Source: Paragonimus westermani (taxonomy: Eukaryota > Platyhelminthes > Trematoda > Plagiorchiida > Troglotrematidae). Taken from it: 64,000 nt of DNA. This document shows, in pieces, positions 3,909 to 54,884 of the stretch. A model generated the notes under the pieces. That model was not told where the DNA came from. It saw only the letters and a program-made list of their open reading frames with translations, and made no database searches. Made by a program: the position numbers and the translations under genes. Each line of letters begins with the position of its first letter. The first letter of the stretch is position 1. The stretch spans positions 312,968-376,967 of the forward strand of contig QNGE01000120.1 of the NCBI GenBank assembly GCA_008508345.1. Reading direction: 5' to 3'.

Positions 3909-4043
3909 TTTTGTTAGAGCAATCAAAAAATTTCACTCGCAGCAAATTTATCTGCATATTATCAGGTACGTACTACAGAGCAGGAGATTATAAAGCATGA
4001 ACCAGGGATCAAATGTGAAACTAAACATACCATGAAAACAAAC
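3909..4043 (+). repeat. Inverted duplicate flanking the PLE, left copy
   Basis: About 135 bases including TACAGAGCAGGAGATTATAA and GGGATCAAATGTGAAACTAA. They recur in reverse orientation at 5,693-5,843 with high identity, including the preceding TTTTTGTTAG..GCAATC. The two copies bracket the PLE fragment, so the segment is probably element-derived. Confidence 0.7.
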
Positions 4044-5692: not shown

Positions 5693-5843
5693 GTTTGTTT
5701 TCCTTGTAAGTTTAGTTTCACATTTGATCCCTGGTTCACGTTTTATAATCTCCTGCTCTGTAGTAAATACTTGATAATATGCAGATGAATTTGCTAGATC
5801 ATAAATCGTGCAAGGTAACGTTTTCGATTGCCCTAACAAAAAT
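5693..5843 (-). repeat. Inverted duplicate flanking the PLE, right copy
   Basis: Reverse complement of the segment at 3,909-4,043, with a few substitutions and a small length difference. It lies about 250 bases beyond the recognisable PLE end. Confidence 0.7.
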
Positions 5844-5849
5844 TCCCGT

Positions 5850-8040
5850 GTGCCGCTGAATATTTACACCACACCGGATAAATCAGAGTTCATTCGAGCG
5901 CGTTAATGGAAGGTAAACCGTTAGTTATGTAGAGAAAATGTGTAATGATTCAAACTACTTCCTCTACGGAGTAGAAGTACTATTCTCTCCATCAACAGAA
6001 GGCGGTTTTTGACTCAACATAACTAACCACCGTATCATCAAACTGTTTTTGCAGTTATCTTTTGAAAAAACCGCACCATCTGTTCTATCACACTGCAACC
6101 AATGAGCAATTTTTAGAATCTCGTGAGTAGCGATATGAGATTAAATTTTCCCTCCTCTTTGACAGTTATCACGTTCCCAGGTAGAACGAATTAGTTTTCA
6201 GCTATATCTCTTGTCATAAATTTACCGCTGCAATTTTTAATTCCCAACTTTGAAAACTGTCATCTGCCAAAATTCGGTGCAAATCAACATACGCAAATGA
6301 ATGCTTGCTGTTCTGCTAACTCAGTCGATGTTTATATATTAATCGACTTTATAATACTAATTTTGTGTGTACTGTCATCAAAAACACGGCTAATAAAGAA
6401 TAAATGTTACCGATAAAACGTGAACCATGATCGTATACTACTCGAAAGTGCTATCATCAAACGAGAATCTTTTGCGTCTTCTGTAATTCCTCAGTACTGT
6501 ATTCGAAATATAACAGGTGAATAGCGGAAGTATCACAAGCTACTGTTATACTGTAGCCGAAAACCAGCAGACAGAATCCACTGACTAAAAAGTGAACGCT
6601 CACAGTATATAGCGATTCAAGGCCAAAGTTCAGTGTGGTCTCCTTATAAACCAAAAGTCTTGATGGGTGCTGTCAGCTTAGAGGAATGATCAATCGAGTT
6701 TGTTGTTCAGGTAGGAATAAAATTTTGTTACTTGCTGTAAATAGTCCATAAGTTTACAATTGGCTTGAACACATACGACACAATTCCGTTAAATTCTTCC
6801 TATAAAGCGCTGTACTCTAACCATAGCATGTATGCTTGTATAAGCAATTCTTTCAGAATCGCTCATAGGCAGTAGGTAATCCGGTTGTTGACCAAGCTCA
6901 TTGGAGCATCAAACCTTCAAAGTGTTAGTTTGTGGAGCACAATTATTTATAGGCCAGTTTGGGTTCAGTGATTATCATGAACTTTTTGTGCCACAACGGT
7001 CCGTTCGGTCCCTACTTCGAGACAAATCTAATAATAATCTGTCCTGTGGACTTGACGAACCCTGTAATACCACTAGCGCTACGATCAGAATCGACGTATA
7101 ATGTCAGCTGAATTAACTGGGACAGGTACTCATAATGAGTTGCATCATAAATTGAATGATCATCAGTCGAATTATAGATACTTATTAAACCTTATTCCGA
7201 AAGACAGGTCAAAACAGCATTGGATGTAGTGGTGAGATTTGTCCCACGGGATTGCATTTCCATTCTCTAAAGAAACAGAAACAATCACCATCAAAATCAT
7301 TAGAGAGGAGAATAGGCCCCCTTGATATGGGAAAAATGGATAGATGAAGATGACAACCTGGCTTCAAATCAGTTATTGATGAATTCACTCATTCGTGGGT
7401 AGTTCGTTCGGGTTGTGTCCTCACAACTGAAACTTCCATATTTAAAAAACCCAAATAAACGTCAACACGAGAGTGTCTAGAACATATGGGACGGATAGAT
7501 TTAATCGCGCATGCACGTACAGTGAACAAGCAAGAACATACATAATCTTACGGATTCAAATGCGACTGAAAACGTTCCACGGACACAGATAAACCTGTGA
7601 AGGCGCAACAGACGCTTTGTGAGCGGATGAGTGGCTAGTGTTTAATTAGAGTCAGTTTAAATTTTCAAAGCAATTATTTTGCAAACATGAATTTCTTGAG
7701 GTTTGCTATTCCAGTCTATCCAAGAAGCGAGCATAAAATATTTTTATTTAAAAACGGTTTATCAAAAGCACTTGGTGATTTTGAGTTGAACCACTCCATT
7801 AACATTCACCACTCCTCTCAGCAGATATAATTTTGAAACTGTTTCTAGATTTTCATAATGAGCAAATATTAAACACTTTTTGGGAGATAAGGCAACGTGA
7901 TAAGAAAATGTGATCCTATGTACACAGTGAACCGTTGGCTGCAGTGTCAGTAGAAAGAGGTTTCGAGGTTTGCCAATCAAGTGGAATAATACTTAACACC
8001 ATTGTAACAGTATGGATTTTTTTAACCATTTACTCTACCA
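5850..8040. other. No gene recognised; expected site of upstream beta-subunit exons
   Basis: I looked here for the membrane-anchor exons of the beta subunit at 8,048 and found no convincing hydrophobic segment with the family signature. They may lie further left or be too diverged to recognise by eye. Confidence 0.4.
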
Positions 8041-8047
8041 TCACTAG

Positions 8048-8721
8048 TTTTATCATGTCGTCGTAACTCGTCGTCGGTATTTGAGAAACCTTTTTTCATA
8101 TTGAATACTGCGCCGTTCTTAATGATCCAACCGATTTCACTGTTATCCCCACAACAGAACTTTAGAGATGATACTTTTCTCATCTACATCGATGCATTGT
8201 ACGCCTTCATGCATGCTTATGAAGATAGCAGACAATTTCAAGACTCTCTCCGACAATGTGATTTGAAAAATAATACCCATCAATCACCAGACGTTGACCT
8301 GCATCGCTCCAGTTGCGCTTTCAGTGCCAACTGGGCATACCGCTGCAATATTAACCGGATGTTTGGCTACGATGACAGCTCGCCATGTTTCATACTAACT
8401 TTAAACCGCATCTATGGCTGGCTTCCATCTACGCAAAATGGGGTCACTGTGTGTTGTCGTGGAGCGACACCCAACGATGACGACTTAATTGGCACGCTCT
8501 GCTTTTACGATGCCCTGGTCCACGATGAGGAAGGTTGCGATCGTTCATGTGGATTGTTTCCGGAACAATATTTTCCTTATTTGAACCAAGACTCTTATAT
8601 GGCTCCACTAGTATTTCTGGAAGTAAGAGACCCACGAAAAAATGTACTGATCAGCATCCAATGCGAACTTGAAAACACTACGAATCCTTCTCGCATTGAA
8701 TTTGAACTTTTGGTGGATTGA
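8048..8721 (+). CDS. Na+/K+-ATPase beta subunit, C-terminal ectodomain exon
   Basis: The beta subunit is the single-pass glycoprotein partner that folds, delivers and tunes the Na+/K+ pump at the plasma membrane. The frame is open after a TAA at 8,023 and ends at TGA 8,719-8,721. Signature segments run in family order: FGYDDSSPCFILTLNRIYGW, the VCCRG block, GLFPEQYFPYLNQDSYMAPL, VLISIQCEL and the terminal IEFELLVD. Cysteines are placed for the three conserved ectodomain disulfides, and there are N-glycosylation sequons such as NNT and NTT. About 210 residues are present of about 300; the cytoplasmic tail, membrane helix and stalk are absent. The exon probably starts after ctctaccatcactag (8,047), but the border is unsure and an acceptor further downstream is possible. 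It has no stops or frameshifts. Most of the ectodomain in one exon could be the native structure or a retrocopy. No AATAAA lies within 1.5 kb downstream. Confidence 0.85.
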
Positions 8722-17164: not shown

Positions 17165-17500
17165 TGCATAGAAGATGTAATGGGAAAGGCTGGAATTCGA
17201 ATATTGGTTCACAGTGTGGCGATCATGCGGACTGTCAGTAATACCAGGCAGGCCATTAAATAAAGGTCCTCTAAGTTAGAGGTTGGGATAAGGTTGGCAT
17301 GTTCTTTAGAAAAAAGTATCAGTTTTAGAAAATCGCCACCCACCCGCTCCCTTGCGATAAAAGCTTTTGAGATAATGGCTTTGGTAGAGGACACTGCTCG
17401 TTCTTCCTTACAAGTTTGGATGTCCTGGCAGTATCTCAGCCTGCACAGAACCATGAATAACGAAAACACCATTCTGCAGGTAGACACCAGAGTCAGTTTT
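17165..17500 (-). repeat. Unclassified dispersed repeat, copy 1
   Basis: Read on the minus strand, blocks such as TTATTCATGG, GCGGGTGGGTGGCGATTTTC and a later CTTTATTTAATGGCCTGCC align in order with 42,450-42,120 (ATTCATGG, GTGGGTGGGTAGTAATAT, CTCAATCTACTGGCAAGCC). Spacing is similar and I estimate about 60% identity. It holds a 92-codon open frame that looks incidental. The family class is unknown. Confidence 0.5.
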
Positions 17501-38600: not shown

Positions 38601-41600
38601 ATGAGTAAAGAACACATATGTACCGCATTCACAGTGTACTCAGGTACAGTCACCTGCTGAGGCTCCACCAATAAGATGAATACTGTAACGGTTTGCTTTT
38701 TCATAATGAATAAGGCTTTCTATTATCCATCGCTTGATGAGAAAATTATCATGATGGCAAAATCCCTTAGGAAAATATCTTATTTTTACTTTGTCCAAAT
38801 ACTTTCATCGATGCATGCAGTTTAGCAGTCAAATGCTGGACAGACGTTTGTCAGTAGCCGTGATGACCAGAAGACTGACACGATGAAGCCAAACGTCTTG
38901 ATCTGACATGTGTGCACACACCCATACCATGTGATTTGGCTAGACAACCATGATGTGTTCAACTCCAACCTGATTCGGTTAGGAGGTTTTTTATTTTGAG
39001 TAAACCATTTGGCCTTCAGACCTCGTATTTGGGTTCAAACTTGTTAGACGATCAGTAGAAGAAACTGGAAAAATAACGACAATGTAATGCGACAGATAAA
39101 GATAAAAAAGCTACGCGTAACGTGACACTTGGTTCAGGTTAGTTTAGTCATGGCACCTTCCAGCTGCTGTGAGAGATTGCAATGATTAGGTTCAAGAAGG
39201 GTTTCCCGTTCACCTGAAAATTGACTGATGTTGTGAATTTCAGCATTCCACTTATGTACGTTTCAGACGACATTCTGATGTGCTGCATTGCTGTCAGACT
39301 GTATCTATTCTAAAGATAAGTTTATCCCAATAGCTTAAATTCTGCAAGCCGATCATTTAGTGTCATTATCTGAATGACGCAACTGACAGAAGTCGCCAAA
39401 CAAGGCTGACAATTGAAATCTCCAAAATGGAGCTTGCGAATAGCTGTGATATATCCAAATTACGCTGATCAAAGAAGCTTGACAACACGACCATGAAAAT
39501 GGTACAGCATGAACACACATTCCGCGAACCTATCTTCTTGAAGAAAGTAGATCATTTGTCGACATTTAGAGTGGTAAACGTGGACGATATAAAACAACTA
39601 TGTTGATACAATCGAAAGTTCATCTACACACCGACAAATAAACAAGACGTCCGTCACTACAAAGATGGTTCACCGAGAGGCAAAGTTCCACTCCTCGTTG
39701 TCGTCTTCAACGAGGGCTTTCCAAATACACATTTTCTCTTTCGTGGTATGCACCTTGTGGTGGTACCGTGAACGTCTGTATGAGTAAATATGATAGAACA
39801 AATAAAAGCTACACATAAAATCGACCACAGAAAACCGCGAAGTTCCCTTGTTTGAGAGAAGTAAACTTCCTCGTCAGTAGCTCAAAAGTGTTGCACGCTA
39901 ATTTCTCCAAACATCATTGGTCAAACCCAATAGGATTCAACCAAACAAAAGACCACATTCTATCACATTGCGCTGAAGACGAAAAGTCAAGTGACAGTGA
40001 AAAGCAAATTTTGATTCGTTGTATTTTGAAAACAGACAGACTTTCATATACCATTAAATATAGCCATTTATGTTAGTCCATACTGTAAACATAAAACTCT
40101 CATTTCATGGATCGCAATCTATCTCAATCGTCTTGGAAAGCAACACACTAGTAGTTATGATTGATACTTAACTACCATAAAACCCTGAGGAGAAAATCAA
40201 ACCCTGACAACACGGAAGAAAAAACGAGCGGAGAGGACCTGACCATTAAAAATAACTAAACCCATAACCAAACAGTCGAAATCGGAGGGCCTAAACCTTG
40301 CAAACGAACAAACGCGCCATAGGCGACATTGTGACGTCAGCAGCAAGACTGCCACCTTACGGCTTTCGTCGCCCAGCATCATCAAATACACTCACTTCAC
40401 AAACAAACCGCACAAACAACGACAACGTTCACGCTACCGAGCCCAATTAACCGCCATCTCAAATAACGTCTCCAGCCATTGACTCTGTGAGCCGTCGCCC
40501 CTACTCCATTCCCTACACGTCCCCAATCGGCACAACCGCCGCAGCCGTCGCCGCCACCTCTACTGATACAAATTCCCATCCACACAAACTAGTCAACAAC
40601 CTCCGTAACGTCATTTTCCAACATGAGATCCACGTAATCACGACAGTCTTGCAAAATCAATTTGTCCTTCGTAGCTACAAAGCGCATTCCGAAGCATTTA
40701 ATAATGTGCGAAATGGCTTCCATGGTCGATTACTCTGCTCGAAATTTGTTAAACAACCACACCCTGTCATCAGTAGGATCAAGCTCAGACAATCTCAGAC
40801 CTGGCATGAGATCCACGCCGGCATCTTGTGGATGTCGCAGACAGTCCTCCATGATTGCGTTTATGACAGAATTAAACAGAAATGATGAAAGCGAACAGCC
40901 CTGACGTACGCCACTTCAGTAGCCGAAACTGCCAGACGACTCACCGTGAACCTCAACCTGAGCTGAACTATGGGAACAATGCGCTGACACTACGTTCTCT
41001 ACGCCTCTGTGTTTGAGCGGCTTCAAAATTATGGATCGATCCACTAAATGAACCATAAAACCCTGAGGAGAAAATCAAACCCTGACAACACGGAAGAAAA
41101 AACGAGCGGAGAGGACCTGACCATTAAAAATAACTAAACCCATAACCAAACAGTCGAAATCGGAGGGCCTAAACCTTGCAAACGAACAAACGCGCCATAG
41201 GCGACATTGTGACGTCAGCAGCAAGACTGCCACCTTACGGCTTTCGTCGCCCAGCATCATCAAATACACTCACTTCACAAACAAACCGCACAAACAACGA
41301 CAACGTTCACGCTACCGAGCCCAATTAACCGCCATCTCAAATAACGTTTCCAGCCATTGACTCTGTGAGCCGTCGCCCCTACTCCATTCCCTACACATCC
41401 CCAATCGGCACAACCGCCGCAGCCGTCGCCGCCACCTCTACTGATACAAATTCCCATCCACACAAACTAGTCAACAACCTCCGTAACGTCATTTTCCAAC
41501 ATGAGATCCACGTAATCACGACAGTCTTGCAAAATCAATTTGTCCTTCGTAGCTACAAAGCGCATTCCGAAGCATTTAATAATGTGCGAAATGGCTTCCA

Positions 41601-44600
41601 TGGTCGATTACTCTGCTCGAAATTTGTTAAACAACCACACCCTGTCATCAGTAGGATCAAGCTCAGACAATCTCACACCTGGCATGAGATCCACGCCGGC
41701 ATCTTGTGGATGTCGCAGACAGTCCTCCATGATTGCGTTTATGACAGAATTAAACAGAAATGATGAAAGCGAACAGCCCTGACGTACGCCACTTCAGTAG
41801 CCGAAACTGCCAGACGACTCACCGTGAACCTCAACCTGAGCTGAACTATGGGAACAATGCGCTGACACTACGTTCTCTACGCCTCTGTGTTTGAGCGGCT
41901 TCAAAATTATGGATCGATCCACTAAATGAGCCATATGTTTGTAGTCATAAAACACAGCAGTTGTTGGTTAGCGTTGTGTACGACGTTGTGCCGAGACTTG
42001 ATGAGGAGTGAGAATTTGATCAACACATTGTTGCCCAGGATGAAACCCCGCCTGTTCATAAATCACAATGAGAATTAACCTTGACGCGTTATGACAGCTG
42101 ATGCATCTTGATGACCTGCTGGGCCAAAGTGTAGAATATGATGACCACACCGACTGGCATACTCACGCCAGGCTTGCCAGTAGATTGAGGTCCGAAAAAC
42201 CACATTGTCCCGGTCCTACAGGTTGGTGGTTGGAAATCTGTGGCATCTTTTTCCGAGAACAGGACCATTTTTAATATATTACTACCCACCCACTGCCTAG
42301 CGGTAATGGATTTTTGACCAGGAGCTTCGGTTGTGTGCCCTAATCGTTTTGCCGTCTGAGTCTGGGCTTACTGCACTATTTCCGCCCAAATACTGCCATG
42401 AATACTGACAACACCCGCCATACCAATGTCTCACTGTTCCAAGGCATTCCGTTAGTACTTGAAGGAGTCTTTGGGATTGAATTCTTGCTTGAACAACAGA
42501 CCTATGACAGGTGTTGTGTGTCACCTAGAATAAAGTTTCAGTAACATTTACTCATGCTCCGAACTCTTCTCGATATTCCAGTAATAATCACTCAGTAATC
42601 AACTTGTAATTATACGACCACTACCTGTAGACGCCGTTTAACCCACTCGATTGTGAACTGACCATTATCGTTCGAAACTCAATTTTAAATTGTAAACTAT
42701 ACGTGACCTTCATGTAAAACAATCGCGTATCATAAAGTGGTTAACGATAGCAACTGAAACCATAGAACCTAAGCCCACGTTGTATCAAACGCCTCTCTAC
42801 GGCACTATGAAATCTGACGACATACAAAACAGTTTCATGCTGTGAGAAAGTGAACATGGGCTAATGCTAGCATCAAGTCTTATCTCTTCAGTGTCGAAGG
42901 TTAATAACCGGATTATCTGTTAACTTACCAAGCCAGGTCAGATTGACCAGTCTGTCCAGATTTTCAATCTTTTCAATTAAGTTGTTGTCCAGTTGTAGTT
43001 TTTTGAGGTTCCGGAATTCGTCCAGATTTCCTATTCGAAGTATGTCTGTGTATGTGTCGAAAATTCCGTCAAGTGTAATTTAACCAGGATTCTGTTGCAC
43101 ACATTGAAAATGACACTCGTAGCAAGCTTGGCCTACAAGAATAACTAAGATACTTTGTAGCGTTGGATGAACTGGTGCTCATTTTGAAGCATAGGTTCAC
43201 ATTCGTGGCCTGAAAATCCGCTTCACCAAAGTAAATAAGTTGTTAACAGACTCTTCAGATTGAGAATTTCTAACCATGAATATTTGTACCGAAAAGCCAA
43301 CACTGATTTTTTGTTTTCTAGGCTGCATACAACTTCATGGTTTGCTCTATTACGGGTTTTCAACAGAACTCTAATGAACTTTTCAAGCTCACTGCTGTTA
43401 TCTAGAAATTCTAATCAGTGGTGGTGTTTCCGAAACTTTTAACTCCTAAATAATGTATTACCGTCCCTAGTCATTCAGCAACTCTGAACACTGGAAGATA
43501 TTCCGACCACAAGGAAATTTGACTTACCCCACATCTACGGGAAAGCTGATCGCATTCAGACATATACCTGCACTCTGTCCAGTCACTCCGCGTTTGGCTA
43601 AATACTTTGCCTAGACTGATCCCGTCTTCCGTTCGAAAAAGTGGAAGCTACAAATAGTCAATGCAAAAAAGGTTTCCTTACATAATGACACTCGCAGAAA
43701 GCTTGTTACCTGTGGCAGATGACCATGTATTGATGGCGTGATGATGTGCGAAGCTTTCACTTCGCCCAAGAGCTCGGCGTTTGCGTTGAAAAAGTGGGAT
43801 AAATAGGCGTTCGTGCAAACAGTTCCAGTCAGCCACAGCGATTTGTAAGTCATCACACTACTTGTACTAATTACATGAGATAGCGGTGACATGCATGGGG
43901 TTTCGAAGATGCAATAATCCCCAGCGATCCGTCAACCAACTCAGGCTCAAGATCTTTACCTCACCGTGAAGCTATTGAGACGATTATCCAGGTACATGAA
44001 ACACATAATTAAGATTCACCATTCAGTGCATCGAAGGGAGGTTTGAATAGAAAAGAATCTGAAGGTTTAGTTCATGAAATGAACAAAAGACGTGTTGAAG
44101 TGTTAGAACGAGAAGAAGGTTACCTTCTCTTTAAAACTAGGGAAGTCACTCGAAAATATAGAGTCCTATGAATGTCAAAGAGTCACATCCTCATGCTGTC
44201 ATCACCCTCATTATTTTGTTTTACAGAAAGCAATTTTTGATGAAACCTTGTACGCACAAAATATATTTCATTGTGCCCCAACAGAAATGTTCAAAGAAAA
44301 CCGTTAGGATACTGTCAGAGAGACAGTTCTCCATAGGACCGTGAGACGAACTGTATGCTAATGAAAAATTCTTGGAAGCAGTTTGGTGGAAGGCATGTGT
44401 TATCGGTCTTAAAAACAACTCTGTCACTAATTACCATCACACTGTGCACATCGGATGGACTCAACACTTTCTTCGCTATTCCACTAACACCCAGCTTCAG
44501 TTCGATTAGTTCAGTTGACTATGCTTCAAAAATGACTGGGATAGAAAGATACACCCGAAATGGTACACACATATACGTCTGTACATGTGCATTCACAATC

Positions 44601-45191
44601 GAAGGTGACCAATATGTCCTGATGTTTTAGGCACTTTTCCCATGCCTGATAGCAACAGGAACAAGTTGGTGAGAAAGCTTCCCGATACGGGCGAATGGTA
44701 ATTGAAACAGACTGATTCGCCAAACAACAACACAATACGCCACAAATAATGGTGAACCAAGTGAACTGTTCAACTGATTTCAGTGGATTATCAAAGGTGC
44801 TCAGCGGAAAACTGTTTCAACCCCACAACTTCTCATTCAACATGAAGGACCACAAAGGTACTCAATGAATCAAGTTTGCAATAATTTCAATATAAACTCA
44901 GGTCGACGTTTAAAATGTCTAAACAAGTTAGGTTACAAAAACACCGCCAGAGTGTGAACTCTAGAAAACATCTGTTTGAAAATTAAGTCAAATAAGCTGA
45001 AGTCAGGACATATAAAGAAGATTGCCCACTTTGAAAATTAAGTGCCAACTTTTTCACTGTAGCGAAATCAATGCCTTCCACACGAGCGATGCGGCCAGCT
45101 TCTTCTTTCGGACCCTGAGCGTAGACTGCGGCTCGCAGCAGAGTTTGAGTGATGATTGTAGGTTCCTTTGTACCCCACAGACGTTGTATCC
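23387..45191 (-). CDS. DRC3: Dynein regulatory complex subunit 3 (LRRC48-like), nine joined exons
   Basis: DRC3 is a structural subunit of the nexin-dynein regulatory complex, which ties outer-doublet microtubules and tunes dynein in motile cilia and flagella; in a fluke it would act in sperm, flame cells and ciliated larvae. Minus-strand exons 45191-45030, 43045-42929, 38298-38132, 37001-36855, 35658-35415, 33557-33391, 32885-32682, 32067-31954 and 23632-23387 have GT..AG borders and compatible phases. They give about 521 residues against about 520 in the family. Order: N-terminal EAGRIARVEGIDF motif, leucine-rich repeats (LQLDNNLIEKIENL, ISLFSNQIKKIEGL, YLSLGKNLL), the LRR-cap segment ending YLDYQRIREHM, then a long charged coiled-coil region. 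Alignment to vertebrate DRC3 is collinear to the stop. No frameshift or stop interrupts it, so it looks functional. The initiator methionine exon is missing. Introns range from 505 bp to 8.3 kb and contain TE remnants. Exon borders were set by eye; the identity is recalled family knowledge. Confidence 0.93.
23633..31953 (-). other. Longest DRC3 intron
   Basis: This lies between the last two coding exons of DRC3. Open frames at 25,031-25,432 (+, 133 codons), 25,478-25,672 (+), 27,660-28,202 (+, two frames) and 30,819-31,142 (+, 107 codons) have no recognisable domain. I see no PLE or RTE signature here, although decayed elements are likely. Confidence 0.6.
31948..31959 (-). promoter_or_regulatory. 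Donor site of the longest DRC3 intron
   Basis: GAGCAG followed by GTAAGG opens the 8,321-bp intron 31,953-23,633. The intron holds no homologous coding sequence that I recognise. Its open frames at 25,031-25,432 (+), 27,660-27,884 (+) and 27,978-28,202 (+) look like chance or decayed repeat. Confidence 0.7.
31954..32067 (-). CDS. DRC3: DRC3 exon, coiled coil
   Basis: Thirty-eight codons in phase 0/0, NYLMKCREAANNFHDRLVEA to DPTDMEQ, collinear with the Q..CR..EN.HHEKL part of DRC3. The acceptor is atcgcag and the donor GTAAGG at 31,953-31,948. An 8.3-kb intron follows, the longest of the gene. Confidence 0.9.
32682..32885 (-). CDS. DRC3: DRC3 exon, coiled coil
   Basis: Sixty-eight codons in phase 0/0: ALHRLESIHETQTSVMEEIL, through LMANEMVISEQIEE, to FERNIREMVAYFLEGSQ. 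This corresponds to the highly conserved EQLEETI..FERNI.DMV segment of DRC3. The acceptor is ttcttatag and the donor GTTAGG (32,681-32,676). Confidence 0.94.
33391..33557 (-). CDS. DRC3: DRC3 exon, coiled coil
   Basis: The 167-base exon encodes KLADSCRMLFQFGLEEHTKR through FLDYKQK. FQFGLEE matches the F.YGL..Q motif of DRC3. The acceptor is tatcgag, the first AG after the pyrimidine tract, and the donor is GTAAGC at 33,390-33,385. It ends in phase 0. Confidence 0.9.
35415..35658 (-). CDS. DRC3: DRC3 exon, start of the coiled coil
   Basis: The 244-base exon runs from RHAAYMKYQMTVDQFNEKM to LVGEIVEQYPF, rich in Glu, Arg and Lys. It corresponds to the DRC3 region between the LRR cap and the GVGELLE..Y motif. 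The acceptor is ttgtttag. The donor is taken as GTGAAT after the first base of the next codon (35,414-35,409), because this gives the one-base phase that the next exon needs. The exact 3' border is the least certain of the set. Confidence 0.88.
35660..36853 (-). other. DRC3 intron with antisense open frames
   Basis: Plus-strand frames at 35,940-36,224 and 36,046-36,399 (117 codons) overlap each other within this intron. No motif was recognised and they are probably non-coding. Confidence 0.5.
36855..37001 (-). CDS. DRC3: DRC3 exon, last LRR and LRR cap
   Basis: Forty-nine codons in phase 0/0, from VLYLRQFRSLNSLTLEG to ELQYLDYQRIREHM. This matches the YLRRF..L..L.L...P and YLDYRRI signature at the end of the DRC3 LRR domain. 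The acceptor is tttttcacag and the donor GTAGGT (36,854-36,849). Confidence 0.94.
37002..38131 (-). other. DRC3 intron with a 145-codon sense open frame
   Basis: The minus-strand frame 38,043-37,606 is the longest open frame in the window after the beta-subunit exon. It lies wholly within this intron, and removing the intron restores DRC3 homology across the junction, so it is not part of DRC3. No motif was recognised. Confidence 0.55.
38132..38298 (-). CDS. DRC3: DRC3 exon, middle leucine-rich repeats
   Basis: The 167-base exon is preceded by an excellent acceptor (ttttcttttgcag). It encodes DLSFNRIEKIENLEDLQNL, then ISLFSNQIKKIEGL and YLSLGKNLLANLTD, about two and a half LRR units. The donor is GTACGT at 38,131-38,126, and the exon ends in phase 0. 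Reading on past the donor gives a short non-homologous tail and a stop. Confidence 0.94.
38299..40149 (-). other. DRC3 intron, part below the inverted arm
   Basis: No gene or clear repeat seen between the LRR exon and the outer edge of the inverted repeat arm. Confidence 0.5.
40174..41051 (-). repeat. 878-bp unit 1
   Basis: Minus strand in order: VDRSIILKPLKHRGV, SGVRQGCSLSSFLFNSVINA (the RT block with the GxxQG signature as RQG), VDLMPGVRLSELDPTDDRVW (where YADD is usual, so catalytically dead), GMRFVATKDKLILQDC and LENDVTEVVD. A C-terminal scrap (SQWLETLFEMAVNWAR) and a 3' untranslated stretch ending CAGGGTTTTATGG follow. It carries private variants at 40,470 and 40,798 and shares a G at 40,519 with unit 4. 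Confidence 0.92.
41052..41929 (-). repeat. 878-bp unit 2
   Basis: Head-to-tail copy of unit 1 at an exact 878-base offset, differing at very few sites. At 41,397 it carries A, shared with unit 3 in the other arm. The frame structure is identical. Confidence 0.92.
42038..42117 (-). mobile_element. RT sequence continuing past the left arm
   Basis: The minus strand reads YEQAGFHP directly into the arm's GQQCVDQILTPHQVSAQRR, the conserved QAGFRPGRGC.DQI..LR block of RTE-clade RT. RT homology therefore continues past the point where near-identity with the other arm stops. Confidence 0.75.
42120..42450 (-). repeat. Unclassified dispersed repeat, copy 2
   Basis: Aligns in order with 17,500-17,165 on the same strand (see that entry). 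It directly precedes the RT scrap in RT sense, so it may be a separate insertion or an upstream part of a composite element. Confidence 0.5.
42929..43045 (-). CDS. DRC3: DRC3 exon, first leucine-rich repeats
   Basis: The 117-base exon (2 + 38 codons + 1) encodes ILRIGNLDEFRNLKKLQLDN, then NLIEKIENLDRLVNLTWL. This is the start of the LRR array, with the LxxLxLxxN consensus. The acceptor is acacag and the donor GTAAGT at 42,928-42,923. The spare G completes the Asp codon of DLSFN in the next exon. An in-frame stop shortly upstream in the intron confirms that this is an internal exon. Confidence 0.92.
43046..45029 (-). other. DRC3 intron
   Basis: No recognised element. Short open frames at 43,611-43,892 (-) and 44,355-44,630 (+) lack motifs. 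Confidence 0.5.
45030..45191 (-). CDS. DRC3: DRC3 exon, N-terminal conserved block
   Basis: The 162-base exon (2 + 53 codons + 1) reads TKEPTIITQTLLRAAVYAQ and then EEAGRIARVEGIDF, the conserved N-terminal block of DRC3. The acceptor is attag at 45,193-45,192 and the donor GTGGGC at 45,029-45,024. The spare A joins AC of the next exon to make the Asn of the conserved FQNILRI motif, which supports both borders. An in-frame TAA lies just 5' of the acceptor, so coding must come from an upstream exon. Confidence 0.9.
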
Positions 45192-46590
45192 CTAATTAAT
45201 TTTAATATGTGAAAGTATTTACAATCTGTCCTTGTTCAGAAGAACGGTTTGAAATGTATGAGAGTTAAGTGATTTTGAGTAACTACGTTTGAAGACAAAC
45301 GCATTACACGGCGCCTTCAAGATGCTTATAACTCATAAGTTACCTTCATCTAAAATTAGTGTAGCCGTAGTGATGTGTAATGAAAAGAACACAAGGTGCT
45401 GCTCGAATAAGGGATTCTTCAACAATGACTGGAAGAAGATAAACAAAAGCTAGATGTGTGAATTAGTAAGTTTGTCAATTACCAAAAATGTTCGATACTC
45501 CGAGTGAAGATTTCGCAATAGCCTAGGCAAATTGTCTTAACACTGTGGGAAACCATGTATAAACCCCAATGCTTTCAGAAGTGGACTTCCACTTTCCAAA
45601 CTGGTTTCATCCCTTAATTATCTTAGGAATTTGATATAAAGAATGAGTGTCCGTGAAATTCCTGTTGTGCATCAGATACTCTGTGCATAGGACCATCGTT
45701 CGACCAAATTTTGCTTGTAGTAAAACGTACTTATTTGACAATGTCCCAATTGTACTATACCTTGACATAATTTTGGAGTTCACAAGTTAAAAACCCACTC
45801 ATGTTCTCAACCTCTAAAAGATTTGAATCACGACGACATAGCCGGTGATTCAGAGATTGAAATCACATGATGATCGGATAACAGTTCGGTGTCGTGTGTG
45901 TCTTAACTCATCACCTTGAATGAGTTGAAACTTTTGGCCGCTGAACTGCTACATAGCTTAACAAACTAAAAATGGTACTGTCGCACAGTGAGAAATGAAT
46001 CTAGCTCTTCTACCGTTGGTCTTATGCTACAGATCATTGTGACCTATGCTTAAATAATGGTCTCTCGTGAATTTGACTGTTCTGTACTCTCCGGCCAAAA
46101 ACAATTAGAGGAAGTTAAAGGCATGACGGAGATTAAAGTCGAAACTAGATTACGTTGACAGAATAAACCACCAATTACTATAGTGGGGGTTGTTACTTTC
46201 GGAACAGCCTGTACTAAATATTCATCCGGCCACACGCTTACCTCTCAGACCCGGAGAAGTCTATTCCCCATATTATGTTACAATGCTCGTCTTCTGTCTG
46301 TTCACCAAGCTTTTTTTGCGAAAAACCTCTTCCTACCTTGATGTAGCGCATTCGTATTTATCCGAAGTTGTCAGTTCTTCAACCGACTAATTCATTTTGT
46401 TGTCTCACTCAAACATCAATTATTCATAAAATGATGCAGGTAAATGTCACCAGTTCGGTCGACATGTTCTAGTTTTCAAAACAGGGCTGAGTGCAACTTT
46501 AGCTGTCATAACAGTTTCAAAATGACCCACTGTGAGTGTCATAGAATGGTTAAGATTTACAATACGAATTTATCGGATTAAAATACTTAC

Positions 46591-46666
46591 TCGTTCCTTG
46601 AAAGGTTTCAAAAACCGGAATAGATTCTTCGACAGCTAAAATTGTAGGTAGCAGATTAATATAGGG
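46591..46666 (-). CDS. Candidate upstream exon of DRC3 (uncertain)
   Basis: On the minus strand a cag acceptor (just above 46,666) and a strong GTAAGT donor (46,590-46,585) enclose 76 bases that stay open and end with one spare base. That is the phase needed to join the exon beginning at 45,191 (two spare bases). The frame reads PYINLLPTILAVEESIPVF and continues to FQGT. A second acceptor at 46,636 would give a 45-base exon in the same frame. It has no start codon, and vertebrate DRC3 begins only about six residues before the conserved EPT..I motif. It could therefore be 5' coding sequence special to this lineage, an exon of another gene, or chance. Confidence 0.3.
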
Positions 46667-47040
46667 CTGAAATCATCTCCATATGAGCTTGAAAAAATAC
46701 GCAACGGCGCAATATGCGACATTTATTTGAAATTTGTTCGCTATACCTTACCAAATAGAGTGACAGCTGAAAATCAACCTGTCCGGCTAGCACTAATGCA
46801 CATGCATCATTCTGAGTGTGGCGTTCTCGTTGAGAATCTGGCAATAATGTCACGTCAGTCGCCTCTAGCCCTGTTGTGTATGCTAAGCCACGCACGCAGC
46901 TTTTGCCGTGAATCGGATGAACACGGCGAGCAATTATCACAATTCAAGTTTATCCAACCAACCGACCTCACGCAGCCCACCTGCTGCGACATGCAGCTGC
47001 AGACAATCCGCTTGAGAATACAGACAACTGTCCACACTCA

Positions 47041-47424
47041 GGTAGAACTATCTCGTCAGCTTTTAATAATGTTGACGAGACATCAGCGAGCAGAGCAAAG
47101 GCACGAGTTGCATTTGCCAAACTGTTATTTATGGCGTTGAAAAGACGTCCGACTTCCTATAGTTCGGGAACGTGGATTGTTCGCGACGAAGATATAAGTA
47201 GACTTGCTGTGCCTGACCATCGTTTTCCTTGCCAATTAGCCCAAGTCAAATGGATCGATCACTTAAGCAATACGGCCATTCGCCAATACGTATTCCGGAA
47301 AGCTCGCGATGCGTGATTACTCAGTCAAATAATCACGGTGTACGGCCTGCAGTGGTTGGGTCACGGACTACAGTTACCAGATGAACGTTTACCACACCGA
47401 GATTCAATATACCGAGTTGAGTAA
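47041..47424 (+). mobile_element. RTE-clade retrotransposon C-terminal remnant
   Basis: One frame reads ISSAFNNVDETSASRAKARV, then AFAKL, SGTWIVRDEDISRLAVPDHR, VKWIDHLSNTAIRQYVFRK, one TGA, and ITVYGLQWLGHGLQLPDERL PHR. This is the post-RT region of RTE-clade elements (DE..AR..KAR.AFA.L, GSETW..R..D..RL..FDHR, RWLGHVLR.P..RLPHR). The block between AFAKL and SGTW is shortened. A 137-codon open frame at 46,727-47,140 in another frame overlaps it and is probably spurious. Confidence 0.82.
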
Positions 47425-48280
47425 ATCCGTTTGGTTTTTAAGCAACAAGGCGGTCAGGAAATATAGAAACTCACTGTCCCACTGAAAAAAGTGCGAACGT
47501 GTCATCTGGCAGGCTGGGGTCCTCGTGATGATTCAAATCACTGACCAGAAACGCTATCCAGTGTGACATATTAACACAGTCGATGATATCCGCATTTCAT
47601 GTCATTTCTAATTTTTCCCGTTATCCTCATTTTAAATACTTTTTTTCTTCCCGATAAAATTTTCCGCTTTTATATCACTGCATGTCACTGTCACGATTAC
47701 CGGTGGTCTAAACCGCAGTACCTTTTGATTAGTCTTATGGCCACTGTGAGTAAGGAAATAAATTCGATACCTTAATATCCTGGTTCATCATCATCATCAT
47801 NATCCTGGTTGAACATGATGGAACTATGTCAGCCCAATAAACCTCCCTCTGGTAACGCAGACGGTTGAGGCGACAACAACTCAAAGTGTTCCGCAGTCAA
47901 ACTTCTAACAATGGCTTGATCTGATAATTTACCATCATCGTCCTTAAGCAAGAAACTTCAGTTGTATGATGTCAGTGAGCCACAGTTGAGGATCCCCGCC
48001 GAATTCTTACAGACTATAACAACAGTGGTAAATCTCGCGTGACAAATTTGAACCTCAATTGACTGGGGCTAATCACTGGGACACCATGTGGGCTGAAAAC
48101 ACAAACTGAGGTGTGTAAGTCAGTGTCAGCTCAAAGAATTGACTTCTAGTATGCGCTACATCTGCCGCAGAAATGACACGTACGGACTAATTAGAAATCA
48201 CTAGTGAGTAATCGAGGACTTGGGTAACTTCAGGTTGAACATCACATATTTGATCACAACCTCCAAATTCATATAGACTA
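47425..48280. other. No gene; ATC microsatellite with an undetermined base
   Basis: Holds a short (ATC)n run at 47,786-47,800 followed by the only N of the window (47,801). The run is flanked by direct repeats of ATCCTGGTT. Nothing else recognised. Confidence 0.7.
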
Positions 48281-48284
48281 TCCA

Positions 48285-48445
48285 GGCAGCTTTTTTTCGA
48301 GAAAAAGGTACTAGACTCAAGTTTTACCCTTGTTGGAGCTCGTTATCAACGCATATCCGTGCCTCGGCTGGGATTAGAACTCCGACTACGCTTTCGTGAA
48401 GCAACCGTGCTGGTCACTACGTCTTGACCTCACATTCAGCACGAC
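48285..48445 (-). mobile_element. tRNA-derived SINE, copy 2
   Basis: The minus strand shows the best tRNA-like head of the family: GACGTAGTGACCAGCACGG (A-box region), then CGGAGTTCTAATCCCAGCC (B-box region). The tail GAGCTCCAACAAGGGTAAAA and CTTGAGTCTAGTACC matches copy 1. Confidence 0.75.
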
Positions 48446-49239
48446 CACATAATCACTACCACCGTCGTTATCATCTGTTAACTACAGTCGACAACCCTGT
48501 GATTAGAACTTCTGAGCCAGGTCAAAATCTCCGATCTTATCAAACACTACAAATAAGCTACTTATAATACGCATCTTTCAGTCATAATGAAAAATCACTA
48601 GCAGTATCAAAATAGCGCCAATTTAATACACCGTGCCATCTGCTTCTAAGTTCTGACGACGGATGATTCCGCGGAGTACAGGAAACGTTTTGTTGTTTTT
48701 TGGAAAATGAGAATAAACAGGGATCTTCAATGCAACTGTTTGATTCAAGCACTTAAAACTGAATGGAATACCTCGAATGCCCACTGTTGACTAGCAATCA
48801 CCTCGTCCATAAGGGCCTCACACACAAGCGCATTTCGCTCACCCACAACTTGTCACTTTTCCAAAATGAGACTGTATGTTAAAGGAACAGTATAATGAGG
48901 AAATGTATGAATAACTAGTATGTGTAATCCACCCATTGTATAATGGTTATTTTCTATCAACAGGCTGGTTGAGTGCATGGAAACGCCCCTCTATTGCGAA
49001 AAAAACACTGTTAGAGTTATTTTTCCTCTATTCATCTTCCCGCGAAAACCATTCACTCGGAGTTGTCTTTGTAGTGACTGGAAACCTAGAAACACAGTTT
49101 ACACTAATGTCACAATGTGATCTATGTCAGAAACCGCACCTGAACATTAGTTAGAAGCGACCGATGGTAAACGTGTTCACAGGTTAATTCGTTCTTGCTG
49201 AATATGAGGTCTATGATTTATCGTTGAACATGGTTTCTT

Positions 49240-49420
49240 CAAAAACACCTGGGCGGAATTCTAATCCTGGCCGTGGGAAGGAGATGGATTACTTTTGAGC
49301 TTTAATAAAGAGGCGAGTCAGGTTTGTCGCCTGTTTTTGAAGTGGGTTGGGGGCTGGTCACTGAAAAGGTGAGGGTCGGGACCAATTTTGAGTGCTATTC
49401 ACTTAGTGTTGAATCAAAAG
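49240..49420 (+). mobile_element. tRNA-derived SINE, diverged copy 3
   Basis: GGAATTCTAATCCTGGCCGT matches the B-box region. The following GAGCTTTAATAAAGAGGCGA and GTTTTTGAAGTGGG follow the family tail with many changes. The A-box half is not evident. Confidence 0.5.
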
Positions 49421-49424
49421 TATC

Positions 49425-50520
49425 AGACGTGCACGAGGCTTTCTCCCGCTTCCTTACCCTACAACGGGAACTAAGAACCATCAGAAACGACTAACAACAG
49501 CGATTTCAAAACAATGTTTCGAAAATTTGACTCTCATTTTGGACAATTTCCCTACTAACTTCATTTTCATTCAGTATTCCAAGTAGTACGGAGCGCATTG
49601 CTAAACTTCTGCCATACAGTTCATTGGGCTTACCACAGAATCAGAACAATGAACGCAAATGCAGTGTCAGGAATGAATAGCAGTCGCGTACTTCAAGTCA
49701 TTCCATGCCACATTGTAAAATCGCACAGAACCACGAAGGGGACAATTAACCTCTAACCTGTGAGTGCTGAATGGGATAATCGCCGGATCAGTACACATTT
49801 GTTAACCAGTCGCTTATGCTGCCAGCGAATAGAATTGGCGGTACTGTAGTATTGTGCGGCAGGATTACAACGGGAACACTGTGTAATTAGGCGATCAGCC
49901 TGTGGTCGATTGCAATGCTCAACACAAAAAATCAGTTATGCCTCCTCATCTTCATACCGAAATATTCAGAGGAATCTGGCAAACTCATGGTGGTGGAATG
50001 AGCATTTTTTGACAGCTCGTCCTCAGATCATCACGTAAATATGGACAAACATTAAACACGAACTTTTCACGGAGTCTGATAGTGTAAGCTGCAGTATATG
50101 AAAGAGTAAGACACGAGCGATATAAGTCTTCTGTGACTGGTCAGCAGAGAGCCATGTTAAACTGATCGCTGGCTATGGGAGACTAAGGACAAAAATGAAC
50201 CTCTTTTGTGTTCACATTTGTTGATTACATGATTAGATCGTAGTCGTTGATCGGCCGACCTCAGTTGAGTGAATGTCTCGGTAAGATTAATCGTGCACCT
50301 AGTGTATACTACATGAGCGACACACGTAGATGTTATCAATATTCCTACTCCAGTTCTTAACCAGGCTGGGTGATGTCGTAGTCCTTTGGGGCAGTTACCT
50401 CGTCGTACACTCAGTATTTTCTGCTTGAAAGTAGCATGTAATTGAATACACGGGCGTGGACAAACACATTATGTTTTATATGACGATGCACAAGCTCGCC
50501 AGTAAAATACTATAAACGAA
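49425..50520. other. No gene recognised
   Basis: No motif or clear repeat seen between the SINE copy and the third PLE remnant. Confidence 0.4.
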
Positions 50521-50529
50521 GCTCATCCG

Positions 50530-51363
50530 TGCGTTGTGCAGTTGGTGAATAAACATCTCTTCGACTAAGTCACTTTACTGGGGGGATTGATAGAAATGGT
50601 CTTCTACTCCAATGTCGCAATTCGACAAGCTTTCGTACTAGCTATTATTTTTCAAGAGAAACTTATCTAAACAGCCGTTTTTCTTACGTTTGCTGGACGA
50701 ATTTTCAACTAGGTGTCGATCTCATTGATTAGACAGGTCCTCCTTGACTCAACACTCACGCAAAGAACTAGATTTCAATTTCATTTGATCGGCATAAAAC
50801 CACTAAAACTCCTATATCAACCGCACCACTTTGAATTGTAGTACAAAGTCAGCCTCAACTGCCCGTCAGACTGTCCGCCTAAGTTCGCATCACGAAGGTG
50901 GAAATCACTGTTTGATTAAGCTTCTGATGTAGAATGAATGGAGTTATGGAAGTGATTGAACGTGCCTAGAACACCGGTAGTCTGCACTGAACTATCAAGG
51001 TTGAAGAAAGTATTGTCAACATGGCGATAATGCAAACGTATATCTCTTTGTGAATGATCAAACCGCCCATTTTCGATCATTTCTACAGTATGTTCAGCAA
51101 CTATTGGGCTCAGTATGGTTCCCACAGTTATGCTGTCTATTCGTTGATAGAGTTAGAGGTGAACTTAAATTGAAGGCTAAACTTAAAAGACAGCAACACC
51201 TCGTTCGAGCTGCTATTGAAGAGCCGTTGTTAATATCTGATTCCTCAATATAATCGCAGGTGCAGGTGATGGTTCCACTGAGATATAGGTTCAAAAATAA
51301 CGGCGTTATACTCAATAAAGGCGCATGTTTGTTATTAACCGCTGCATTGCTTACGGTTTTCAT
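50530..51363 (-). mobile_element. Penelope-like element, degenerate RT (third family)
   Basis: The minus strand reads MGTILSPIVAEHTVEMIENG, then LHYRHVDNTFFNLDSS (YVDD-type palm box altered to HVDN, so inactive), GQLRLTLYYNS and FSGFMPIK. The order and spacing fit PLE palm and thumb (MGSPLSPIVAE..ME..E, F.RYVDD.F, GKL...VYRK, YL.F.S..P). A preceding scrap near 51,180-51,100 (FNLSSPLTLSTN) fits the F.FNG..Y approach in a shifted frame. A GIY-YIG end was not identified. Confidence 0.7.
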
Positions 51364-53080
51364 GCACTTAAATATGTCATACAGGCTAAATAGCCAGATC
51401 TATCAACTGTTGATATCAAAACTGCATGGTATTGTGTTCTGCACATATCACACATTGGTTTCATTGCACGACCTTGATTGTACGTCTTTGGCTGCAGATG
51501 TAGACGTAAAAAGAGTGAATCTTTGACTTCTATAGAGCTAACTAAAGCTTAGATGATTGTCTCTTTGTTGAAAAGGTCTCAGATTTTGGATAACCATTCT
51601 TCGGTGTCGCGTCTCTTCCACGCTTTGTGTGATTTATTGCAGCGACATCGGTATCAAAGATACCTTTCACTCGGACCTGGTCACCATCCTTCGGTCGATA
51701 AATGGTTCGCGTACAGTCGTTCTGGCCGGAAATATGAACACCCACGCCGGCTGCCTTATAGGGACCGAGGCTTGTTTAGGTTGAAGATTTGAGATAGCAT
51801 CACATCAATCGGATAACGGCGAGCACCTGTTACAGCTGTGCGCTGAACACAAACTACTCTTAGCCAGCACTGGTTTCACGCATCGTCCCTGTCTGTTACA
51901 TTGGATGCCTTCCTTCTCCGAAGCACGCCTCGTCTCACATAGGCCATATGGCTGTTAGTTATAGATGGTGGGGCTCCCCTGAGGAATGTCGTTTTTCTTG
52001 GAGCAAACACTCTGATTCAGATCATGAATTGGCATGTTTTCGCTTTGTTCTTACTTCTTCTGGACCCTCAACTTATCAAGCGTAACGACTAGCCATTGAG
52101 AGACTAGCTGTGCTGTCGATAAAACGTAAGTACCAAACTAACCTAAAATGCGAGCTTACCAATTCTCACCCCGATGATCTTAGTAGTTGCTAGACCCACA
52201 TCTCACAGGCCATTTGTGAAGCAGGTACTGTCGCATTCGGCACGAAGGTACGTGTGTCAAATTAACATTAGGTCGCGGAAAAATCTCCAGGGATGTTAGA
52301 AGCCAGACGTGACTTTCCTCGTGACTGGTCATGTAGCAAGTTTGAGACAGATATCCGTAAAAAAAACTGGAACGTAGCTTAAACACTGATCGTGAGTCTT
52401 TGTTTACGGAAAACCTAGTCAAATGGAAACCGGCGTTGCTCCAGGGAACATCGGTACACTCTTCAAGCTCATCCGTTTTGCTAGTTCCAGGTGACCCTCC
52501 GCCAGTGAAGCTATCAGCGAGACAGATGGCACATTCGTCTGTAATAATCCCAGAGAGTTAGGGTACTGAGTGAAACAATTTGAGAGTCAATTTGACTGGA
52601 CTCCTGCTTCTATTGTGCTGCCGTCACAAACCTATAGTATAGCACCTTGGTCTTTAAATTTAACTCCACCCACTGAGACTGAGGTCCCCAGTTGCATCTC
52701 GGCTCTCAAACGTAATAGGGTTGTTGGTCCAGAAGGTCTCGTGTCGTCACTTTCAAAGAATGTGAGAAACTGTTAGTAGGGACCTCTATACAGTTGTTTC
52801 AACTTGTTTGGAAGACGGTGACCATGCCTCCGTGCAAGGGCAATTCGATAGCAGTTCTCACATTCAAGAAAGCCGTCCAGAGCTCTTGCAAAGATCAGAG
52901 CAGAATTGGCTCACCTCAAGCTATCACGAAGGTTCTAACACCTAGTAGAAAGAAATACGCATAAGTTCGTCGTGGGCAACAATGTGTTGATCAAATTCTC
53001 ACTCCTCATCAAGTCTCGGCACAACGTCGTACACAACGCTAACCAACAACTGCTGTGTTTTATGACTACAAACATATGGC

Positions 53081-53958
53081 TCATTTAGTGGATCGATCCA
53101 TAATTTTGAAGCCGCTCAAACACAGAGGCGTAGAGAACGTAGTGTCAGCGCATTGTTCCCATAGTTCAGCTCAGGTTGAGGTTCACGGTGAGTCGTCTGG
53201 CAGTTTCGGCTACTGAAGTGGCGTACGTCAGGGCTGTTCGCTTTCATCATTTCTGTTTAATTCTGTCATAAACGCAATCATGGAGGACTGTCTGCGACAT
53301 CCACAAGATGCCGGCGTGGATCTCATGCCAGGTGTGAGATTGTCTGAGCTTGATCCTACTGATGACAGGGTGTGGTTGTTTAACAAATTTCGAGCAGAGT
53401 AATCGACCATGGAAGCCATTTCGCACATTATTAAATGCTTCGGAATGCGCTTTGTAGCTACGAAGGACAAATTGATTTTGCAAGACTGTCGTGATTACGT
53501 GGATCTCATGTTGGAAAATGACGTTACGGAGGTTGTTGACTAGTTTGTGTGGATGGGAATTTGTATCAGTAGAGGTGGCGGCGACGGCTGCGGCGGTTGT
53601 GCCGATTGGGGATGTGTAGGGAATGGAGTAGGGGCGACGGCTCACAGAGTCAATGGCTGGAAACGTTATTTGAGATGGCGGTTAATTGGGCTCGGTAGCG
53701 TGAACGTTGTCGTTGTTTGTGCGGTTTGTTTGTGAAGTGAGTGTATTTGATGATGCTGGGCGACGAAAGCCGTAAGGTGGCAGTCTTGCTGCTGACGTCA
53801 CAATGTCGCCTATGGCGCGTTTGTTCGTTTGCAAGGTTTAGGCCCTCCGATTTCGACTGTTTGGTTATGGGTTTAGTTATTTTTAATGGTCAGGTCCTCT
53901 CCGCTCGTTTTTTCTTCCGTGTTGTCAGGGTTTGATTTTCTCCTCAGGGTTTTATGGA
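53081..53958 (+). repeat. 878-bp unit 3
   Basis: Partner of unit 2 in the left arm; it shares the T at 53,613 (A at 41,397 on the plus strand of the other arm). Same RT fragment, C-terminal scrap and 3' tail as the other units. Confidence 0.92.
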
Positions 53959-54836
53959 TCATTTAGTGGATCGATCCATAATTTTGAAGCCGCTCAAACA
54001 CAGAGGCGTAGAGAACGTAGTGTCAGCGCATTGTTCCCATAGTTCAGCTCAGGTTGAGGTTCACGGTGAGTCGTCTGGCAGTTTCGGCTACTGAAGTGGC
54101 GTACGTCAGGGCTGTTCGCTTTCATCATTTCTGTTTAATTCTGTCATAAACGCAATCATGGAGGACTGTCTGCGACATCCACAAGATGCCGGCGTGGATC
54201 TCATGCCAGGTGTGAGATTGTCTGAGCTTGATCCTACTGATGACAGGGTGTGGTTGTTTAACAAATTTCGAGCAGAGTAATCGACCATGGAAGCCATTTC
54301 GCACATTATTAAATGCTTCGGAATGCGCTTTGTAGCTACGAAGGACAAATTGATTTTGCAAGACTGTCGTGATTACGTGGATCTCATGTTGGAAAATGAC
54401 GTTACGGAGGTTGTTGACTAGTTTGTGTGGATGGGAATTTGTATCAGTAGAGGTGGCGGCGACGGCTGCGGCGGTTGTGCCGATTGGGGACGTGTAGGGA
54501 ATGGAGTAGGGGCGACGGCTCACAGAGTCAATGGCTGGAAACGTTATTTGAGATGGCGGTTAATTGGGCTCGGTAGCGTGAACGTTGTCGTTGTTTGTGC
54601 GGTTTGTTTGTGAAGTGAGTGTATTTGATGATGCTGGGCGACGAAAGCCGTAAGGTGGCAGTCTTGCTGCTGACGTCACAATGTCGCCTATGGCGCGTTT
54701 GTTCGTTTGCAAGGTTTAGGCCCTCCGATTTCGACTGTTTGGTTATGGGTTTAGTTATTTTTAATGGTCAGGTCCTCTCCGCTCGTTTTTTCTTCCGTGT
54801 TGTCAGGGTTTGATTTTCTCCTCAGGGTTTTATGGT
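53959..54836 (+). repeat. 878-bp unit 4
   Basis: Partner of unit 1. It shares unit 1's variant at 54,491 (G at 40,519) but not its variants at 40,470 and 40,798. This order of shared variants shows that the dimer existed before it was copied in inverted orientation. Confidence 0.92.
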
Positions 54837-54884
54837 AGTTAAGTATCAATCATAACTACTTGTGTGATGCTATCTGAGACGGTG

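Follow-up and report, generated by a model that had tools for sequence, protein, structure and literature searches.

Two near-identical inverted arms lie 10.9 kb apart in the window, the whole 64,000-nucleotide stretch of Paragonimus westermani DNA analyzed here. Sequence comparison makes it probable that they are the outcome of nonallelic gene conversion, the best explanation of the arms, in which sequence was transferred between old LINE copies of a single family that lie in inverted orientation. Each arm lies in its own LINE copy, diverged homology between these copies continues beyond the arm ends, and the arms are as decayed relative to their family as the LINE sequence that adjoins them.

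Results

Alignment of the left arm (40150–42037, LINE sense on the minus strand) with the reverse complement of the right arm (52973–54860, LINE sense on the plus strand) gave two arms of 1,888 bp each with three mismatches and no gaps. The arm-to-arm identity is 99.84% and the mismatches fall at 40470, 40798, and 41052. The first-pass annotation, made by eye, had described inverted arms of this length with no indel and about three mismatches, and this description is exact. The BLASTN match reaches somewhat farther (40129–42044 and 54881–52966), and the extra length consists of diverged ends. With the arm matches and the matches of the repeated unit within them set aside, no other self-match in the window exceeds 141 bp at an E value of 1e-5 or better, and the likeness of the arms is therefore far beyond chance.

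Each arm sits in its own decayed copy of a single LINE family, and these copies are oppositely oriented. The left copy occupies 40128–42057 on the minus strand, where the outermost family matches start at 40127–40128 and the innermost end at 42057. It is truncated on its 5' side near 42057, and on its 3' side it extends about 22 bp beyond the arm. The right copy occupies 51637–54882 on the plus strand, and its homology carries on past the inner end of the arm (52972/52973), which is crossed by single alignments to the family copies L022 (51687–53347) and L028 (52364–53581). A 5' fragment of the same family (42063–42414, plus strand) directly adjoins the left LINE in the opposite orientation, and the two together would represent a twin-priming-like order. 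The reverse transcriptase domain PF00078 is present in L028 (E = 6.6e-34), and the apurinic-type endonuclease profiles PF14529 and PF03372 match the copy L033, both below the curated cut-off. No open frame of at least 150 amino acids was found in the LINE copies of the window. In most of the seven LINE copy ends that were aligned, the sequence passes into a TGA/GAT repeat. Long terminal inverted repeats of a DNA transposon were considered as a source of the arms and rejected, because the arm ends lie inside LINE sequence and are not transposon ends. Elsewhere in the window, a frame at 8026–8721 resembles the Na/K-ATPase beta subunit (Pfam PF00287); among its six matches, the identity is 85% to a Paragonimus skrjabini miyazakii protein and 54–58% to those of three other flukes. 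The window contains no match to Rfam RNA genes at gathering scores.

LINE homology was followed across each arm end into short flanks that are here taken to be unconverted LINE sequence. The left outer flank (40128–40149, minus strand) and the right outer flank (54861–54882, plus strand) correspond to the 3' ends of the two LINEs. The left outer flank matches six LINE copies at 13–15 of 22 positions, with 15/22 for L028 and L029; the right outer flank matches each of the six at 13/22, and its offset in L028 and L029 equals that of the left outer flank. The left inner flank (42038–42057, minus strand) matches the six copies at 15–17 of 20 positions, reaching 17/20 for L028, L029, and L031. The right inner flank (52953–52972, plus strand) matches them at 10–13 of 20, with 11/20 for L028, and LINE sequence continues upstream of it.

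These scores were compared with those of random 20- or 22-mers from the window slid over the region in the six LINE copies. None of 2,000 random 20-mers reached the score of the left inner flank in any of the six copies. The score of the left outer flank was reached by 0.0005 to 0.07 of the random draws and that of the right outer flank by 0.04–0.07. For the right inner flank the fractions were 0.15–0.18 in four copies, 0.49 in one, and 0.0085 in one; this flank is weak when taken alone, and its LINE identity accordingly comes mainly from the L022 and L028 alignments that run through it. As judged by sequence comparison, the best support for the right outer flank is its match to the left outer flank at 16 of 22 positions, which has a binomial probability of about 1e-5 at 0.27 per base.

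The homology shared by the two LINEs spans 1,930 bp and contains 19 mismatches. The outer 22 bp account for 6 of these, the inner 20 bp for 10, and the near-identical tract between them for 3. The flanks are alike at 26/42 positions (62%), and 16 of the 42 bases differ. The tract takes up 1,888 of the 1,930 bp (98%) and leaves about 20 bp of shared homology on each side. Its ends are sharp, with no mismatch in the outermost 320 bp or the innermost 985 bp. No arrangement among 20,000 shuffles was as uneven between tract and flanks; the tract ends were defined on the same data that were shuffled, which makes this figure a measure of sharpness and not an independent test. A near-identical tract nested in older, diverged homology is thus found directly at three flanks and through the crossing alignments at the fourth. 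Diverged LINE homology beyond all four arm ends favors conversion and disfavors a fresh insertion. The first-pass annotation had offered recent gene conversion and recent inverted duplication side by side. The former is supported by the placement of the arms in separate LINEs with diverged homology past their four ends, and the latter, as a duplication into an unrelated site, finds no support because LINE homology runs past every arm end.

The 3' ends of the two LINEs also weigh on a recent origin of one arm as a copy of the other, either by inverted segmental duplication or by re-insertion of a LINE transcript that already carried the tandem duplication described below. The 99.84% arm identity speaks for such an event. 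However, a new copy would bring its own LINE end, and the last 22 positions on the 3' side differ at 6, with both versions looking old. In the stretches compared, neither LINE showed an exact match of at least 7 bp that could be a target-site duplication, though any such duplication may have been lost with age. We regard this origin as highly improbable.

Duplications that accompany staggered-break inversions leave near-identical inverted repeats at the ends of the spacer. An inversion of this kind would have flipped the spacer and duplicated 1.9 kb of a single LINE at both breakpoints. Near-identical inverted repeats do bound the spacer, and the right inner and left outer flanks might represent opposite ends of a single LINE. 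Under this model, however, the left inner flank and the right outer flank should be free of LINE sequence, whereas they match LINE copies at 17/20 and 13/22, and it leaves the likeness of the two outer flanks (16/22) to a chance of about 1e-5. A staggered-break inversion is consequently very unlikely.

In each arm an 878-bp unit is repeated head to tail, about 2.15 times when the remainder beyond the two full units is counted, a structure absent from the first-pass annotation and invisible to TRF, for which the longest period was 500. Self-comparison places units 1 and 2 of the left arm at 40173–41050 and 41051–41928 and those of the right arm at 53960–54837 and 53082–53959. The motif CCATA stands at the tandem junction and is common to both unit ends, and the duplication probably arose by microhomology in one LINE copy. 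Five positions vary across the four units, including two at the unit boundary. At site 40519, unit 1 carries G and unit 2 carries A in the left and the right arm alike, and the retention of this split in both indicates that the tandem duplication came before the most recent transfer between the arms. Sites 40470 and 40798 are altered in unit 1 of the left arm only, and site 41052, at the tandem junction, differs between the left and right arms.

The unit was searched against its own genome, an 823-Mb assembly of 9,701 contigs. Scoring covered 40 of 4,230 candidates and 47 matches were listed, a scope that undercounts repeats. Among the matches listed, the unit occurs at ~100% only at the four places in the arms, and the remaining 43 of the 47 are 72–80% identical. 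Relative to the family, ~460 bp are missing from the unit, which has 56 bp where L028 has ~519.

The age of the arms was assessed against the family majority, with columns excluded if they held fewer than four copies or less than 75% agreement. The identity was 0.767 for the left arm (1,645 columns), 0.772 for the right arm (1,613 columns), and 0.786 for the right LINE outside the arm (1,138 columns). The fragment at 42063–42414 gave 0.793 over 111 columns, which is too short for use, and a fragment at 17265–17459 had zero usable columns. The arms and the adjoining LINE are equally decayed, and only the likeness of one arm to the other is therefore young. The youth attributed to the arms in the first-pass annotation thus holds for their mutual identity, with 3 of 1,888 positions different, and fails for the arms themselves, which have decayed from the family as far as the adjoining LINE. 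By these comparisons the arms are old sequence that was recently made alike.

Base composition was compared between the left arm and the LINE beside the right arm. The W>S and S>W rates are 0.181 and 0.222 in the left arm; for the LINE next to the right arm they are 0.166 and 0.208, and the W>S/S>W ratios are ~0.82 and 0.80, respectively. The GC value for L033 over the arm region (0.184) was discarded because of a run of N. Compared with the LINE that adjoins the right arm, the left arm consequently has no GC bias in the sense of an AT-to-GC excess, and the expected mark of long-repeated, GC-biased conversion is missing.

The missing bias bears on how often the arms exchanged sequence. Within gene conversion, it is a tentative possibility that a single break-induced replication or template-switch event joined already diverged LINEs with no earlier exchange between them. 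One tract with sharp ends, the microhomology-type tandem duplication within the arm sequence, and the lack of a long-term GC bias all agree with such a history. It requires, however, an exchange between copies that are ~62% alike at their unconverted ends, and recombination at that level should be strongly suppressed given that the flanks agree at only 26/42 positions; the tract would also have to cover 98% of the shared homology by happenstance. In the accessible text of one source, conversion rates are 5e-9 to 1.3e-8 at 81–85% identity, and conversion tracts average 200–300 bp in most studies (PMC3924818). A tract that nearly fills the shared homology between ends that are 62% alike makes a first exchange today unlikely. 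We infer that a repair mechanism acted at least once recently and, less surely, that exchanges have taken place repeatedly from a time when the copies resembled each other more closely, which is the history we prefer.

An assembly artifact, which the first-pass annotation also raised, is the remaining alternative. In this case, an arm or the middle of an arm would have been filled with reads from the other arm, or arms from distant places would have been misjoined at the only N in the window, and the inverted layout with a 10.9-kb spacer would not be real. This single N (47801) lies in the spacer beside a CAT repeat and appears to mark a scaffold join. The Paragonimus drafts in print are, by the available portions of the reports, mostly based on short reads (PMC7370270 and PMC6329441), and local repeats that are nearly identical turn up at several other places in the assembly (C65, C2318, and L028, below). 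Against these points, the junctions between arms and flanks differ in sequence and are backed by exact runs of 320 bp on the outer side and 985 bp on the inner side, and assembling such junctions would have needed true reads at each. Moreover, the N lies away from the arm ends, the arms are not verbatim copies but carry three differences, one of them at the tandem junction, and another inverted pair in the assembly (C119) has no N between its arms. An artifact is thus unlikely. If the join at the N is wrong, the arms are still near-identical parts of two old LINEs that are perhaps not neighbors; if the middle of an arm was filled in, the arm ends would still be real.

Other repeat pairs were drawn from listings of LINE copies in own-genome searches, in each of which the 40 best candidates were scored. 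In further own-genome searches both outer flanks were single-copy. Same-contig pairs noticed in these listings were C119, C65, and C2318, with equal scores, and C25, with unequal scores, and the first three were compared. C119 is an inverted pair of 2,319 bp with 21 mismatches, all of them outside a 1,743-bp exact core, a clustering equaled by 0 of 20,000 shuffles. There is no N in its spacer. Its design departs from that of the pair in the window: as ~1.2 kb of the arm lies outside LINE matches, the C119 pair probably originated as an inverted duplication whose arms were later made alike. C2318 is a 3,942-bp head-to-tail duplication at 99.9%, and in C65 at least 6,873 bp are repeated at 99.96%, with an N immediately before the second copy.

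Thirteen LINE loci were also self-compared for repeats longer than 150 bp, 12 of them alone and L032 joined to its neighbor L044. The L032 locus belongs to the C119 pair. L028 has a direct repeat that is 100% identical over at least 644 bp and inverted repeats at 79–81%. Inverted repeats are also present in L030, 94.8% identical over 1,118 bp, and in L031, 79% identical over 419 bp. No repeat longer than 150 bp was found at the nine other loci, of which L022, L023, and L033 contain long runs of N. The recurrence of near-identical local repeats weakens the uniqueness of the pair in the window and makes both a general process and a general assembly fault likelier.

Discussion

Gene conversion, the preferred reading of the arms, would have proceeded as follows. 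Two copies of one LINE family would have inserted independently in opposite orientation ~11 kb apart, and both would then have decayed. An 878-bp tandem duplication would have arisen in one of them. A break in one copy would have been repaired with the other as template, and ~1.9 kb of one copy would have overwritten the other, carrying the tandem duplication along.

The fluke arms are a further example of a known process. Conversion is raised between Alu copies within ~10 kb of each other, according to the available parts of two reports (PMC6598467 and PMC8230782); the fluke spacer measures 10.9 kb. As far as these parts describe it, Alu conversion in primates resembles the fluke pair in that same-family copies ~10 kb apart are alike and their surroundings differ. 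The fluke pair differs in that it consists of LINEs, has a 1.9-kb tract, carried a tandem duplication, and is known from one genome. The excerpts available for the human Y chromosome give a mean minimum conversion tract of 2,068 bp in a palindrome (PMC3723533). On the same excerpts, palindrome P6 has inverted arms more than 99.8% alike, a spacer that is unlike, and kilobase tracts, as in the fluke; its arms exceed 100 kb and show GC bias, whereas those of the fluke measure 1.9 kb and show none (PMC3723533). In titles and abstract openings, with few subscription journals covered, no report of conversion between a LINE pair in a fluke was found.

The inverted pairs of dead LINEs seen here might be self-maintaining mini-palindromes, in which arm-to-arm conversion continues for the life of the pair and holds its copies identical while the surroundings decay. 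We hold this broader idea to be doubtful. Parasitic flatworms have lost Piwi pathways, according to the accessible part of one report (PMC8191739), and in that setting an inverted LINE pair, if transcribed, could yield a putative long hairpin RNA.

If the conversion is real, LINE copies of the ordinary dispersed kind undergo multi-kilobase gene conversion in a parasitic flatworm. Similarity between repeat copies could then badly mislead the dating of insertions, and pairs of this kind would be spots for possible inversion of the spacer between them.

Near-identical repeats elsewhere in the assembly

A further near-identical inverted pair lies on another contig of the same assembly (G000:C119, 6520-8838 and 15745-18063). 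The arms are composed of a decayed LINE together with about 1.2 kb of other sequence, and an exact core of 1,743 bp is bordered by edges that have diverged. One arm only carries a tandem duplication of about 490 bp, which is located at its outer end. Recent-looking tandem duplications are present on two other contigs, G000:C2318 (101387-109268; 3,942 bp at 99.9% identity) and G000:C65 (182037-195900; at least 6,873 bp at 99.96% identity). A single N immediately precedes the start of the second copy on G000:C65.

Other features of the window

The LINE copy containing the left arm of the main inverted pair ends at 42057; from 42063 onward lies a 5′ piece belonging to that family, in the reversed orientation. 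This arrangement matches the order that twin priming on insertion would produce. A search of the compared stretches for exact matches of ≥7 bp found no target-site duplication. An open frame in the spacer of the main pair (46921-47316) looks, on visual inspection, like the C-terminal portion of the LINE reverse-transcriptase protein; Pfam returned no match to this frame at E 0.1. An exon-like open frame at 8026-8721 matches the Na/K-ATPase beta subunit (PF00287, Pfam). Nearer the window start, 103-bp sequences at 3941-4043 and 5693-5795 form an inverted repeat with 91% identity and a spacing of about 1.65 kb, and are perhaps a small inverted-repeat transposon.
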